Shown here in pieces: positions 6,264-18,653 of a stretch of DNA of 28,232 bases; the stretch's first letter is position 1, and the number at the start of each line of letters is the position of its first letter. A program made the translations under genes and the position numbers. The notes beneath the pieces are model-generated. The model was not told where the DNA came from. It saw nothing but the letters and a program-made list of their open reading frames with translations, and searched no databases. Source of the stretch: a virus; IMG/VR virus record IMGVR_UViG_3300009593_000092, positions 1-28,232 of that record. One strand, 5' to 3'.

Positions 6264-6620
6264 ATGGATATTAGCTTAAGCGCTAGCGCACAAAGAATTA
6301 TTAATGAGACAATTGCGGAGGGAGAATATCTTCGTGTCTCTGCAAAGTCTGGGGGATGCTCTGGTTGGAAGTGGAGTCTTGAGACTGAAACTGGTTTGGA
6401 AGACCGAATGGACGATGTCTTCTTTACTGAGACTTTTGAGGTAAGATGTAACCATGATATACTTCATAAGGTTATCGGTTCTGTAACTATTGACTATTCT
6501 GATACTGGAAACTTAGTTGAGGATGGGTTTATCTTCCGTCGCCTCGTTGCCCCTGGCCACTCCTGTGGTTGTGGAGAGAGTTTCACTCCTATCTCTGAGA
6601 TACATAGCAATAAAGTATGA
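6264..6620 (+). CDS. IscA/HesB-like A-type iron-sulphur carrier
   Basis: The protein has 118 residues, the usual family length. The three Fe-S ligands of A-type carriers are present: C32 in GGCSG, and C101 and C103 in SCGCGESF; an extra C62 is not a family ligand. Such proteins accept or deliver Fe-S clusters or iron, and homologues occur in marine T4-like phages. ATG 6264 is preceded by AAGGACTTT. Its 3' end overlaps the convergent RuvC-like gene by 108 bases. Iron supply to the non-haem iron oxygenases encoded from 20276 onward is an attractive but unproved link. Confidence 0.85.
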   Translation: MDISLSASAQRIINETIAEGEYLRVSAKSGGCSGWKWSLETETGLEDRMDDVFFTETFEVRCNHDILHKVIGSVTIDYSDTGNLVEDGFIFRRLVAPGHSCGCGESFTPISEIHSNKV

Positions 6621-14146: not shown

Positions 14147-14977
14147 TTAGGCGGTGTCAGACTCATCAGTCCAGTATGGAGAGAACGCTACTTCGGGACT
14201 ATATCTAGTAATATTGGTGTCAATCGTATATGAGTCAAACTCCGTAGCTGATGCAGGACTAGGAGAGATAACTATCTCAGAGTGCATGCCTGGGTCTTGG
14301 TCTTGTAAATCACCGAAAGTTCTTACTGTTACTTCTCTTATTGAGCCACCCTTACTTGAAATATCTTTAGTTCCAGCGAAGAAGTAAGCCCTCATCGTGA
14401 AACCCATTGTCCAGACCATAACTCTCGTTCCGTCTGCAGTCTGTTCGTAAGCATCATCCCATTGAACCGAATCTAGGATAAGCGGAATGTCGAGAGACAG
14501 TCCTTCCAAGGCTGGGTCACTAGATTTGAGTAATCTCAAGGATGCGGTGAAGTCAGGATGAAAGTTCGGTATTATCTGCTCGACTATTTGAGCCCCATCC
14601 TCTGTCGTTTTAGACCAGATGTGGAGTTCAAAGTTGATGTCGTAAGGAATGTGCATTGGAGTCTTAACTATTGCTCCTGCATTATTCCTACCTCTAAAAC
14701 TATTCAGAGGATTTAATTTTCTTGACAGGTCGTATTGAAAACCAGACACGAGAAACCCCATTCGTGGTAGAACCACGTTTGGTTTCCTGTTAAGAGTTGG
14801 GTCGCCAAGTATTCTCTGGCGATAATAGTCCCTACTAGCATAAGTTAGTGGGACACGAAAACGATTGACAACATTCTTGTCTTTGTCAAATCGTCTACAT
14901 TCGATATTGTTGAACAGAGTCCCAAAATATGCGACATATGTTCGTATGAACCTGTGATAAAAGTATCTTCCAAACAT
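14147..14977 (-). CDS. 15: Tail terminator / proximal sheath stabiliser gp15
   Basis: The protein has 276 residues (T4 gp15: 272). The start FGRYFYHRFIRTYVAYFGTL with FNNIECRR, the VPLTYASRDYYRQRI segment and PMHIPYDINFELHIWSKT followed by QIVEQIIPNFHP match gp15. It caps the tail tube and joins it to the neck. Its ATG overlaps the TAA of gp14 by one base, with GGAAA upstream. The last 50 or so residues are polar and variable. Confidence 0.9.
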   Translation of the reverse strand: MFGRYFYHRFIRTYVAYFGTLFNNIECRRFDKDKNVVNRFRVPLTYASRDYYRQRILGDPTLNRKPNVVLPRMGFLVSGFQYDLSRKLNPLNSFRGRNNAGAIVKTPMHIPYDINFELHIWSKTTEDGAQIVEQIIPNFHPDFTASLRLLKSSDPALEGLSLDIPLILDSVQWDDAYEQTADGTRVMVWTMGFTMRAYFFAGTKDISSKGGSIREVTVRTFGDLQDQDPGMHSEIVISPSPASATEFDSYTIDTNITRYSPEVAFSPYWTDESDTA

Positions 14978-16290
14978 TAGAAATTTCCGTCGCTAAATGG
15001 GTCAATCTCTGAGAAGTCGATGAAGGACTCTTCTTGTGTTCCTCCTATTTCCTCACCTTGTGAGGCTACCTCTTCGAACTCCTCATTTTGTGCCAGAACG
15101 TCCGCTGGAGTGTCCAGTTCTTCGTCTGGCGTAAGAATCAGAGTATCAGTAATACCTGCGAAGGAGCCTTCAGGGACAAATGTTAATCTCCTGAATGAAC
15201 CAGTCGTTATGATGGTAATACTGAATCTATCTACACCATTTTCGTCTATGATGTTACCCTCTTCGGCCTCCAGTTTCAGAGGTGATAAAGCCTCCAACTG
15301 AATGTCAAGAACAAGGTTGTCTCCGTTGTCTTCTGCTACGATTTGGTCAGTCGTTAGACCTTCCGTTGCTAGGTTCGCTACTGTATTCTCAATTCCTCCG
15401 ACAATAATGTCGTTTGCGGTAAAACCGCCCCTCATTGGAACTACAGTAAGCTTGCCAGTCCATTCATCGTGGTGCAGAACACGAGCAGAAGGAGAAGTTG
15501 AAGTATGGTCGTCAAGACCAAAATCACTTGTCTTGTAGATAACTTCCCCTCTATTAAAGGTTCCGTATCCCTCTTGGGTTGAAACGTAACACTCAGCTCG
15601 TCCCTGAGCATGGTTGTCTTCGATGGAATCAATTTCCCGAATACCTGTGTTAAATATCTCATTGCTATACTCCAGTAAATCGCAAACCATTTGATACTGT
15701 GGAATGATACCGCCTGGGTAGAAAGGCGCCTCGTGTTCAACGAAAGTTATCTGGAATACCTTTTTATTAAAAGGAAAGTATACCAAATCTCCTTCGAATG
15801 GTCGGGACCTTAAAGATGACTGGGAACCTGTTTCTAGAGCCAGAGTATGAATAATTCCATCTGACTCAGGTTCTAAAACAATGTTGTCACTTGTCGACCC
15901 AAATGAATTAAACTCCATTCGGAATGTATCAAAACCACGTTGGTCCTTCTGATATGCAGACTCATACGTATCTTGGTATTCAATAGTTTCCCATGTCTTC
16001 CTTGACATGGTTATTCTCATGCGGTCTTTTATCTCAAGACCAAATTTTGAGTAAAACTCTCCCTCGCCTTCAAATCCGTCTGTGTTCTCAATAAGAACAG
16101 CAACGTTGAAGGAAGAGTCAAACTTTAACTGTTGAGACTGACCAAAAATTGAGTCTTCTTCAACAGCGTCTTTTCTAGGCAGATAGATGATATCCCATCC
16201 ACCTAGAAAAATTGTTTCTGCTGTAAGTGAGTCTATTAGACCCTGTTGACCAGAGTCAGAGTAGGGTCGTATATAAGGACTTACTGGCAT
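14977..16290 (-). CDS. 14: Neck protein gp14
   Basis: The protein has 437 residues from ATG 16290. The N-terminal core SPYIRPYSDSGQQGLIDSL, followed by ETIFLGGWDIIYLPR and IENTDGFEGEGEFYSKFG, matches the gp14 neck protein of T4-like marine phages. It is far longer than T4 gp14 (256 residues): the C-terminal 150 residues are beta-rich, then strongly acidic (EEFEEVASQGEEIGGTQEE). ATG 16290 is preceded by GTGGAGAACA; the in-frame ATG at 16320 would read through the Cys-peptide gene and lacks this ribosome site. The gene starts inside the last codons of the Cys-rich peptide (10-base overlap). Confidence 0.88.
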   Translation of the reverse strand: MPVSPYIRPYSDSGQQGLIDSLTAETIFLGGWDIIYLPRKDAVEEDSIFGQSQQLKFDSSFNVAVLIENTDGFEGEGEFYSKFGLEIKDRMRITMSRKTWETIEYQDTYESAYQKDQRGFDTFRMEFNSFGSTSDNIVLEPESDGIIHTLALETGSQSSLRSRPFEGDLVYFPFNKKVFQITFVEHEAPFYPGGIIPQYQMVCDLLEYSNEIFNTGIREIDSIEDNHAQGRAECYVSTQEGYGTFNRGEVIYKTSDFGLDDHTSTSPSARVLHHDEWTGKLTVVPMRGGFTANDIIVGGIENTVANLATEGLTTDQIVAEDNGDNLVLDIQLEALSPLKLEAEEGNIIDENGVDRFSITIITTGSFRRLTFVPEGSFAGITDTLILTPDEELDTPADVLAQNEEFEEVASQGEEIGGTQEESFIDFSEIDPFSDGNF

Positions 16291-16376
16291 TGTTCTCCAC
16301 AAGGGGTGTATTCGTCGCACTCACAAGGATTGCAACTACAGTTTTCGCACTCACAGTTTGGGTTATCGCAGGACAT
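16281..16376 (-). CDS. 31-residue Cys-rich peptide (metallothionein-like)
   Basis: Nine of 31 residues are Cys, at 3, 8, 10, 13, 15, 18, 20, 26 and 30, giving three CxC and alternating CxxC spacings with Asn, Glu and Pro between. No signal peptide is present, so in the reducing cytoplasm it would bind soft metals (zinc, copper) as metallothioneins do; an alternative is a metal-stapled virion tip or plug. The ATG overlaps the TAA of the Met-rich gene (TAATG) with AAAGGG four bases upstream, and its end overlaps gp14. This context makes it very likely to be translated late. Confidence 0.7.
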   Translation of the reverse strand: MSCDNPNCECENCSCNPCECDEYTPCGEQCQ

Positions 16377-16825
16377 TAAGCCCTTTCGATACTAAGGTCC
16401 ATTGAGCCTGGGTCAAAGGTTACATTATAAGTAAACGATACTGGTTCCATTACTGAACCTGCCGTATCGTCAATATAAGTACAAGCTGAAGCTATCATAT
16501 CGTTAGCCCATGACATACCCTCGTCTTGGAGAGCTGCACCCATCATCGCACTTCCGTGATTCATCATTTCTCCCATGTCAGGCATAACTGGCATAGAAGG
16601 CATTGACTCGTCTGCTGGGTCAGCGATACGAGAAACCATATCCATCATTGAACTACAAGGTTGACTTGGGTCAGAGGAAACGACTTGGTCAATAACTGAC
16701 ATCGCTTCTTTGGGAATACATTTTTCAACCATTCCCATAACGTGTTCTTTCGCGAGGTTAGTCGCGGCATCGGCACAAAGTCCTCCGATTACATTTGTCA
16801 ACATAGGTACGAGCATTGGTAACAT
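16376..16825 (-). CDS. Met-rich protein of the neck cluster (149 aa)
   Basis: Unrecognised. About 21 of 149 residues are Met. Between about 73 and 95 Met recurs every two to four residues (MPSMPVMPDMGEMMNHG), resembling the methionine motifs that bind Cu(I) in copper proteins. Four Cys are scattered (17, 36, 57, 114). The N-terminus MLPMLVPMLTNVIGGLC is hydrophobic without a basic n-region and may be membrane-associated. The C-terminal 30 residues look like beta-strands. ATG 16825 has a strong AAAGAGGTAAGA ribosome site. It sits between a membrane protein and the Cys-rich peptide. Confidence 0.7.
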   Translation of the reverse strand: MLPMLVPMLTNVIGGLCADAATNLAKEHVMGMVEKCIPKEAMSVIDQVVSSDPSQPCSSMMDMVSRIADPADESMPSMPVMPDMGEMMNHGSAMMGAALQDEGMSWANDMIASACTYIDDTAGSVMEPVSFTYNVTFDPGSMDLSIERA

Positions 16826-16827
16826 TC

Positions 16828-17118
16828 TTACCTCTTTCTATTTACGTGGCCATCCACGACTGTTTCTAGTTTTACCAGACGCTCCTCGATGGTTCGAACT
16901 CGGACAATTGTGTCCTGAACTTCTGGTGGTGGTTTAAAACTGTTTATCCATGCAGTATTACCTTCTACCTGTTTCGAACCATTCGCCAGTTCATTTTCCA
17001 AATAACTGAGCCGTTCTGTGAGACTGAAGTAACCCCAGACTCCGATAGCTACCGCTATGATAAGTGATATTAAGTTTCTCAAGGGTATCTGCAATTCTGA
17101 ATTTTCATTAAGTTTCAT
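16828..17118 (-). CDS. Single-pass membrane protein with coiled coil (96 aa)
   Basis: I start it at ATG 17118 (MKLNENSELQIPL), which follows AAAAAGAAACACCTA; upstream in-frame ATGs lie deep in the preceding gene without ribosome sites. A charged cytoplasmic N-terminus is followed by a membrane helix at about 13-32 (LRNLISLIIAVAIGVWGYFS), then heptad-like helices at 34-48 and about 68-85. Proteins of this form (NEN-x5-PL-x-NLI, TM, VWGYF) occur in other marine T4-like phages without known function. The stop lies two bases before the next ATG. The topology could suit a spanin-like or holin-partner role; that is inference. Confidence 0.75.
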   Translation of the reverse strand: MKLNENSELQIPLRNLISLIIAVAIGVWGYFSLTERLSYLENELANGSKQVEGNTAWINSFKPPPEVQDTIVRVRTIEERLVKLETVVDGHVNRKR

Positions 17119-17449
17119 TAGGTGTTTCTTTTTTGGCGGATATTCGCTCATCAATTTGTTTAAGTTTTGTAGTGCTGACATGCACGACAAAATCTACAAT
17201 AACAGGTAACAAGTCCCTGAAAGAAAGTGCTACCAGAAATGCCACCAAATATTCGAACTCTTTGTATTCTTCCAAATGACTTATTTGAAAGATGTAGTAT
17301 ATGAACAACATTCCTGAGCCCATATAAACTGCGTTACGAAAGAAGTCGGCGAATCTTGTTTTGACATCCTTTACCATTACTAAGACTGAGTACAACAAAA
17401 TAAAAATACCCATCAATACTAAGTTTAAGTTTTCTAGCAGAGTCTCCAT
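17108..17449 (-). CDS. Three-helix membrane protein, holin-like (113 aa)
   Basis: Three hydrophobic helices are visible at about 7-26, 40-57 and 66-90, followed by a charged, basic C-terminal tail (KLKQIDERISAKKE). Size and topology resemble class I holins, but no family signature is recognised and no lysozyme gene is adjacent. ATG overlaps the TGA of the upstream gene by one base (TGATG), with GGAGG nine bases before. It is the second of three consecutive membrane-protein genes between gp13 and gp14. Confidence 0.75.
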   Translation of the reverse strand: METLLENLNLVLMGIFILLYSVLVMVKDVKTRFADFFRNAVYMGSGMLFIYYIFQISHLEEYKEFEYLVAFLVALSFRDLLPVIVDFVVHVSTTKLKQIDERISAKKETPNET

Positions 17450-17808
17450 CAGTGATGCCCTCCGCCATGTTGTTCTCTAAGGTCTTCTTGTCTACGAATC
17501 TCTTCGTTAGCATTTATCATAACCTCTTCTTCTGAGAGGTCACATTTGAATGCAGTTAAGATTCTATGGGCGCCTTTGCCCTGAAGTATCAAGTTTAATG
17601 ACTCTTCGTAGTTGTCATTCGCATCATCCATCTCATGGTCTACTATCTTCTGTAAATTCATGCTCTCTCTGTGCAGGATCTTTTCAACTATTAATGGAAC
17701 CTGACTTATTGAGTATGCTAACCATAAAACGGCAAATACGAGAATCCAGAGAACCTTAGACTGTTTCACGACCATCGCTGCTTCGTGTTTGTTGTCCACT
17801 TGGGCCAT
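17449..17808 (-). CDS. Single-pass membrane protein with His-rich tail (119 aa)
   Basis: A polar N-terminus is followed by one membrane helix at about 19-36 (VLWILVFAVLWLAYSI). The remainder is a helical, acidic domain with an isolated Cys in FKCDLSEEEV and the end HGGGHH. The function is not recognised. ATG 17808 has a strong AAGGAGAAGA ribosome site 23 bases after gp13, so it is the first of the small genes between gp13 and gp14. The terminal His cluster could bind metal, which fits the Met- and Cys-rich neighbours, but this is inference. Confidence 0.75.
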   Translation of the reverse strand: MAQVDNKHEAAMVVKQSKVLWILVFAVLWLAYSISQVPLIVEKILHRESMNLQKIVDHEMDDANDNYEESLNLILQGKGAHRILTAFKCDLSEEEVMINANEEIRRQEDLREQHGGGHH

Positions 17809-17831: not shown

Positions 17832-18611
17832 TTATTCTATGAAAAAATCCATTGGGAGTTCGTAATTCAGACTCATTTCTTCTTCGAGTCTGGCTAAGTT
17901 TTCTTTCGCTTCCTGCATAATAGCATCGCCATTCAGACTTACTCCGCCTGGCAATTGAACTCCTACCAACTTAACAAGGTTCGAACCCCATTGGTATCGA
18001 ACCAACTCTGTGGCGTATTTCTTCAACCACATATCTGAAAATGCATCTGTGTTCTCTGTAGGGTCGAGTCTTTTAAATGCAACCATTACAATATAGTCGT
18101 GCAAATTAATGTCTGGTGCCCTATTAGCAGAAAGTCCGTTTACTGCTGAGGACGGCCACATTAAGTCGAGGTAGAGTTTATCCGTATGTCTATTGAAACG
18201 TATGTTCTGTCCTCTACTTCCAAATGTTTCATCGATGAGGTCCAGATGTTCCATCGTCATATGAAAGTTAGAAAGATTTCCTTGGGTCAGGTGAGGCATC
18301 TCGTTCATCATGTATTGATACTTGAAGGAGAACATCCCTGAAATGTTTCGGTGAGAAATAGGCGGTAAAATGCGCTCGATACCGATGTAAGAATCTGTTA
18401 CTGGTATGTAAGTATTATCGATGTCAGTCTGAGTGACTTGATGTCTAACGTATGTTCTTTCGCTTCCATCAAAGTGATATTCCTGCCACTTCTGGACTGC
18501 TTCATCGATTCTGTCTTCAACCTGTTCATCAGCCACGTTTATCTCAATGACTGGTTTCCCAAGTTTACGGAGACAGTATTCTTTAAAGTCTGCTCTACTA
18601 GCAATCGGCAC
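17832..18611 (-). CDS. 13: Neck protein gp13
   Basis: The protein has 259 residues. The start SRADFKEYCLRKLGKPVIEI followed by DEQVEDRIDEAVQKWQEYHF is the hallmark of gp13 in T4-like marine phages; further on, YIPVTDSYIGIERILPP and MWLKKYATELVRYQWGSNL agree. With gp14 it closes the portal after packaging and connects head to tail. The start codon is GTG (18611) with TAGGGGGTCCA before it. Transcription probably starts from the CTAAATAG motif at 18644-18651. Confidence 0.92.
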   Translation of the reverse strand: MPIASRADFKEYCLRKLGKPVIEINVADEQVEDRIDEAVQKWQEYHFDGSERTYVRHQVTQTDIDNTYIPVTDSYIGIERILPPISHRNISGMFSFKYQYMMNEMPHLTQGNLSNFHMTMEHLDLIDETFGSRGQNIRFNRHTDKLYLDLMWPSSAVNGLSANRAPDINLHDYIVMVAFKRLDPTENTDAFSDMWLKKYATELVRYQWGSNLVKLVGVQLPGGVSLNGDAIMQEAKENLARLEEEMSLNYELPMDFFIE

Positions 18612-18617
18612 TGGACC

Positions 18618-18653
18618 CCCTAAATAGTTTGGTTTATTACTATCTATTTAGGG
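18618..18653. promoter_or_regulatory. Interlocked divergent late-type promoters in a perfect inverted repeat
   Basis: CCCTAAATAG (18618-18627) and CTATTTAGGG (18644-18653) form a perfect 10-bp inverted repeat with a 16-base gap. Each arm is therefore CTAAATAG on its own strand, the TAAATA core of T4 late promoters. The plus arm points into the 18662 gene and the minus arm into gp13, both with leaders of about 25-30 bases. Confidence 0.55.

Follow-up and report, generated by a model that had tools for sequence, protein, structure and literature searches.

A Cysteine-Rich Peptide Gene in a T4-like Neck Operon

The window, by which we mean the whole stretch of viral DNA analyzed (28,232 bases), carries T4-like late genes. 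On its minus strand the gene order is gp13-like, three small ORFs, a gene herein called p149, a Cys-rich ORF, and gp14-like. The features referred to below are as follows.

6264..6620, plus strand: A-type Fe-S carrier-like protein, IscA/SufA-like (Pfam Fe-S_biosyn, E 9e-5, 23.1 bits, cut-off 26.3)
14977..16290, minus strand: gp14-like neck protein, head closure Hc2 (PHROG phrog_460, E 1.8e-52)
16281..16376, stop codon included, minus strand: metallothionein-like peptide gene, 31 residues, nine Cys (translation)
16295..16298, minus strand: likely gp14 ribosome site, GGAG, within the last codons of the peptide (read from the sequence)
16376..16825, minus strand: p149, a 149-aa protein, its stop overlapping the peptide ATG (ORF reading)
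16381..16386, minus strand: likely ribosome site of the peptide, AAAGGG, 4 nt 5' of its ATG (read from the sequence)
16828..17808, minus strand: three small ORFs of 119, 113, and 107 aa, between gp13 and p149 (ORF reading)
17832..18611, minus strand: gp13-like neck protein, head-tail adaptor Ad2 (PHROG phrog_211, E 4.3e-35)

Read from 16376 to 16281, the Cys-rich ORF encodes MSCDNPNCECENCSCNPCECDEYTPCGEQCQ, in which nine of 31 residues are Cys, spaced as C-x4-C-x-C-x2-C-x-C-x2-C-x-C-x5-C-x3-C. The coordinates and composition given in the initial annotation are correct; the strand, which it left unstated, is minus. Its account of the translation signals also holds: AAAGGG precedes the peptide ATG by 4 nt, this ATG shares its A with the p149 stop codon (TAA, 16378 through 16376; TAATG), and the peptide ORF, ending at 16281, encloses the ATG of gp14 (16290 through 16288).

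The upstream gene, p149, has no match in Pfam or PHROG, and no p149-like protein was found in cultured phages. It contains a Met-rich stretch, MPSMPVMPDMGEMMNHGSAMMG, that is largely replaced or missing in the relatives listed; a copper role for p149, considered from this stretch, was rejected because relatives lack the stretch or carry other residues at many of the Met positions. The three small ORFs are, by eye, membrane proteins at least in part, and the insert that they form may be a lysis cassette because one of them has a weak Rz-like spanin match (PHROG E 0.028). The nearest cultured relatives by gp14 are mostly cyanophages, and it is for this reason that we call the window phage marine.

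Selection on the Cysteine Skeleton

Cys accounts for 53 of 5421 residues in the 12 large ORFs of the window. We shuffled the whole window 200 times with dinucleotides preserved and scored any open 31-codon stretch; the best stretch held eight Cys, nine were reached in 0 of 200, and the motif C.C..C.C..C.C was found in none of these shuffles. Among four neck-site copies (window, L079, L082, and L080), all nine Cys are kept in six of six pairs, despite TGT/TGC switches at two to six of the nine Cys codons per pair. The pooled pN/pS of this set is 0.30, with pN of 0.25 to 0.30 against pS of 0.89 to 0.98 for pairs that include the window, and a second set of four copies (L077, L154, L396, and L222) gives 0.28; the eight sequences were picked among the copies at hand.

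The peptide ORF is a real gene, and its Cys skeleton is under purifying selection. A non-coding or chance ORF lying over the gp14 ribosome site has a negligible probability in our estimation: the ORF is short, and the gp14 start signals sit in its last codons, where constraint is partly not on the peptide, yet the pN/pS of about 0.3, the retention of nine of nine Cys across synonymous switches, and the shuffles all speak strongly against it. The suggestion of an easily missed, metallothionein-like gene within a late operon is supported, its Cys skeleton being under selection, and the family libraries tried give no match.

Presence and Absence at the p149-gp14 Junction

The junction between p149 and gp14 could be read in 13 contigs; a further copy of which only the end is present (L398) and three cut junctions (L081, L084, and L400) were left out. 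Ten of the 13 carry the peptide ORF (window, L079, L080, L082, L392, L077, L078, L396, L222, and L154), and in three (L073, L393, and L394) p149 directly abuts gp14. The neck-site gene is thus conserved but dispensable. Loss of the ORF beside conserved flanking genes had been named in the initial annotation as evidence against it; such loss is found in these three junctions, and the ORF is retained in the other ten. Among 64 more distant gp14 loci from the same scan (L401 through L464) the peptide was found in none; in L401 through L403 the C terminus of a gp13-like protein lies, by eye, directly upstream of gp14. The peptide is therefore not kept wherever gp13 and gp14 are kept, as a T4 neck or virion protein would be, given the three junctions and the 64 distant loci without it. 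At the neck site it was seen only in company of p149.

A Family of Short Cysteine-Rich Viral Peptides

The pattern NC.C..C.C.PC.C was found in 71 viral stretches, some of them antisense low-complexity noise, and a second pattern in at least 120 stretches; 28 bacterial stretches also matched. A filter that removed antisense low-complexity matches (SNCSC...) and copies inside ORFs above 50 aa reduced 220 rows to at least 141 stand-alone rows, with 15 rows bacterial and at least three contigs appearing twice. At least 99 distinct stand-alone peptides were left after filtering, at least 84 of them viral. The long form has about 26 to 46 residues, nine Cys, and the consensus MCxNxxCxCENCTCDPCECTxENPCGC; the short form has about 15 to 24 residues and six or seven Cys. 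The nine-Cys class (41 of 42 members with nine) was chosen by patterns requiring about nine Cys, and its uniformity is not independent evidence. Seven Cys columns are fully invariant in a hand-picked alignment of 29 rows.

The family profile A2 scores the window peptide at E 4.6e-11, the window peptide itself being included in A2, and the family profile recovers a copy in 13 of 13 known-positive records, several of whose peptides are rows of the profile. Pfam, NCBIfam, and PHROG models match none of the family peptides tried; for Pfam, nine family peptides hit no family at an E threshold of 10, with HMMER filters applied. A profile search of eight whole T4-like marine cultured phages found the peptide in none. 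With tblastn, the peptide and one relative returned nothing from cultured phages, a result that does not amount to absence because low-complexity masking probably hides the queries; blastn with the DNA of one relative gave short, chance-like matches only. The window ORF belongs to a widespread and apparently undescribed family of viral metallothionein-like peptides.

A similar Cys module, CEDC.CDPCEC, makes up the C-terminal portion of viral proteins of about 60 to 100 aa (L116, L123, L131, L144, L167, L215, and L225), whose N-terminal stretch carries, for example, EKRGRW or YQKRDIW; in these longer proteins the module is a movable Cys domain.

Gene Neighborhoods and the Link to iscU

Genes adjacent to the stand-alone rows (at least 141) were clustered, and representatives were checked against Pfam. 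IscU contributes at least 21 neighbor proteins (one representative, Pfam NifU_N, E 1.6e-50); the other viral neighbors are SNase, Hsp20, M15 peptidase, and the T4-type prohead protease, and an Fe/Mn superoxide dismutase (SOD) lies two genes upstream of the peptide in at least eight viral loci. p149 also occurs in a second arrangement: at least 12 loci of a different phage group have a p149-like gene directly downstream of the peptide, with an M15 peptidase nearby. The peptide is not a neck specialty, and a link to the neck is not supported; the C-x-C-x2-C-x-C-x2-C-x-C form occurs in many viral neighborhoods.

A microORF with the motif is present in 40 of 80 viral IscU loci, a set enriched by its query, which came from a peptide-bearing contig. 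All 40 copies are on the IscU strand, 10 upstream of iscU and 30 downstream; of the downstream copies, 25 overlap the iscU stop and five lie at 342 to 395 nt. In many of L228 through L260 the iscU end TAT GTG TAA overlaps the peptide start ATG TGT AA in a fixed 8-nt overlap. In other layouts the peptide precedes iscU by as much as about 1.2 kb, and several of these have an intervening SNase gene. Portal control loci have the motif in 0 of 79 over 720,500 bp, with no IscU or SOD; the 80th portal locus, L154, was left out as it was already in the peptide set, with a neck copy. Under a looser test (any ATG ORF up to 60 aa with at least six Cys, at least 18% Cys, and any spacing), 42 of 80 loci score in the first IscU set (41 on one strand, one on the other) against 7 of 79 portal loci (three and four). 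NifU_N was also found in 4 of 12 peptide contigs, within about 1.3 kb of the peptide, against 0 of 12 portal contigs; both sets were hand-picked, L150 was already known to have an adjacent iscU, and L162 has the layout of known near-iscU contigs.

None of 80 loci from a second viral IscU clade, retrieved with a query from a peptide-free locus, carries the peptide, and a NifU_N search of the window gave no match. The link between iscU and the peptide is strong in some lineages and absent from another. In L469 through L547, a large viral IscU clade with many contigs above 50 kb, no such peptide was seen within the 3 kb or less on each side.

Viral iscU and A-type carrier genes have been described in marine phages as auxiliary metabolic genes (PMC5332604, PMC9038755), and this published iscU is the same gene as the neighbor of many family members. 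The Cys-rich companion ORF goes unmentioned in the portions of these two accounts at hand, and the word "cysteine" is absent from the main text of PMC5332604. An IscA/SufA-like relative is present in 5 of 79 portal loci; the IscA/SufA-like gene of the window shares a contig with the peptide, and their membership in one system is only putative.

Cellular Relatives and Known Metallothioneins

In three Oscillospiraceae contigs (L089, L093, and L100) a relative of the peptide, e.g., MNERTCTNPLCTCENCTCDPCLC..., overlaps the stop of a gene for an ArsR/SmtB-family regulator (L100, HTH_5, E 7.9e-12; the L089 and L093 regulators are 81 to 84% identical to that of L100). Bacterial metallothioneins are described as regulated by SmtB-type sensors (PMC9337993), and the overlap is the layout expected of a metal-induced metallothionein, such regulation being putative here. 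No ArsR/SmtB-type (or Zur) regulator gene was seen beside the window copy. The L100-type peptide occurs in one of 300 genomes of its family, that of L100 itself, and for a Verrucomicrobia-type relative the count within its family is 3 of 20 genomes; on the Cytophagales contig L086 an Fe/Mn SOD lies 41 bp downstream of the relative. ORFs of about 300 aa with repeated CxCEDCKCDPCxC-like units were also noted on Prevotella/Prevotellaceae MAG contigs (L085, L092, L094, L097, L101, L103, and L112).

With nine Cys in 31 residues, the window peptide has the composition of the metallothionein class, small proteins with about 20 to 30% Cys in CxC/CxxC arrays; metal binding in thiolate clusters, the other mark of that class, is predicted for it. 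Metallothioneins typically lack aromatic residues, and a Tyr is unusual among them; the window peptide has one Tyr and the other seven neck-site copies compared have none. With the β domain of vertebrate metallothioneins (fish MT_nc, 1m0j) it shares a length of 28 to 31 residues, nine Cys, and CxC and CxxC groups, but these groups come in another order, and the viral peptide is free-standing and acidic. In a PDB search with a threshold of E 10, the family profile picked out a single chain, this same fish metallothionein 1m0j, at a non-significant E of 0.56, and the peptide matches neither the vertebrate Metallothio model of Pfam nor, significantly, any PDB chain. The bacterial proteins BmtA and SmtA resemble the family in being small and Cys-rich, and a gene for an ArsR/SmtB-type regulator directly precedes the three cellular relatives. 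BmtA and SmtA have His ligands and a zinc-finger-like fold, whereas the window peptide has no His and is about half their length. Pfam Metallothio_Pro, the BmtA/SmtA model, was not matched by the nine family peptides, which hit no Pfam family at the threshold of E 10. Judged from these comparisons, the peptide is metallothionein-like in its expected role and lies outside every named metallothionein family tested. No phage metallothionein is described in the titles and abstracts among the matches listed, a scope that excludes most subscription journals.

Discussion

We consider it reasonably probable that the window ORF encodes a late-expressed viral metallothionein-like peptide, predicted to bind metal, that serves as a zinc/copper and thiol buffer in the infected cell and whose gene is an optional cassette. 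Among the three ideas of the initial annotation (loading metal into a virion part, buffering zinc or copper, or acting as a packaged effector), buffering is the best supported, with binding predicted. The overlaps would let ribosomes finishing p149 start the peptide and those finishing the peptide start gp14, and the peptide would be made late, with the neck proteins. It would fold only around metal, like the nine-Cys β domain of animal metallothioneins, which holds three divalent or about six Cu(I) ions, and may bind it in thiolate clusters of M3Cys9 or Cu6Cys9 type. Zinc/copper and thiol buffering could then protect metalloproteins and Fe-S assembly during the production of progeny. Because Fe-S scaffolds can be poisoned by copper and zinc, the pairing with iscU would be explained. 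The window peptide has none of iscU, SOD, or ArsR as a direct neighbor, and its proposed function is borrowed from relatives with which it has little in common except the Cys skeleton, a likeness that could be convergent. Also weighing against this reading are the second IscU clade devoid of the peptide, the enrichment of the first IscU set by its query, the three junctions and eight cultured phages without the ORF, the rarity of the ArsR pairing, and the Tyr of the window peptide.

A narrower role, as a dedicated Fe-S assembly partner of viral or host IscU, we regard as unlikely; instead of buffering in general, such a partner would carry iron or persulfide or guard specifically against copper. 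Several observations fit it: 25 of the 30 downstream copies run over the iscU stop, all 40 copies are on the iscU strand, the upstream layouts reach out to about 1.2 kb (several with SNase between), NifU_N was matched in 4 of 12 hand-picked peptide contigs against 0 of 12 portal contigs, and the window contig has an IscA-like gene. A second IscU clade that lacks the peptide in all 80 loci does not fit it, nor do the many peptide loci, those of the neck type included, with no iscU nearby; the window, without a NifU_N match, is one of them. That the peptide is a metal-loaded virion part, built into the neck beside gp13 and gp14, would suit its place in a structural operon and the overlap or close coupling of the neck-site copies with gp14. 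The clean absence of the peptide between p149 and gp14 in L073, L393, and L394 leads us to place this reading low, and the family occupies many sites away from the neck; metal loading into a neck part is very unlikely when the peptide is dispensable to phages that share these neck genes.

Two further proposals concern the infected cell. Nine thiols on a free-standing peptide could in principle strip zinc from host proteins to aid takeover, an otherwise speculative idea that we hold to be highly improbable: late expression, expected from the structural operon, would be the wrong time for takeover, and the cellular relatives sit behind ArsR. Scarcely probable, too, is a role in lysis, in concert with p149, holin-like, and M15 endopeptidase genes. 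The p149-like gene directly downstream of the peptide in the second phage group (at least 12 loci), with the M15 peptidase close by, is in its favor, but a lysis role for p149 is only putative, and no such association is seen where the peptide overlaps iscU or adjoins the prohead protease.

Returning to the buffer, we offer tentatively, as possible rather than probable, a broader proposal: that phages, probably marine, carry a mobile, undescribed metallothionein family that serves as a module for metal homeostasis. Some would have it fused by overlapping frames to viral iscU, with translation of IscU then also producing a thiol peptide that guards or feeds Fe-S assembly during infection, and the neck copy would be the same tool placed in a late operon. 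If true, a recurrent metallothionein-like partner would mean that phages also supply their hosts with metal buffering, and would make the question of how phages keep metals in order during added Fe-S metabolism directly testable. The family also illustrates a class of genes below 50 codons that is missing from Pfam, NCBIfam, and PHROGs as tried.

Elsewhere in the window, the plus-strand run at 18629 through 28000 contains, by eye, genes for a NodU-like carbamoyltransferase, a tryptophan-halogenase-like flavoprotein, and an AMP-ligase, together with several 2-oxoglutarate/Fe oxygenase-like proteins, and looks like a phage-borne biosynthesis cluster.
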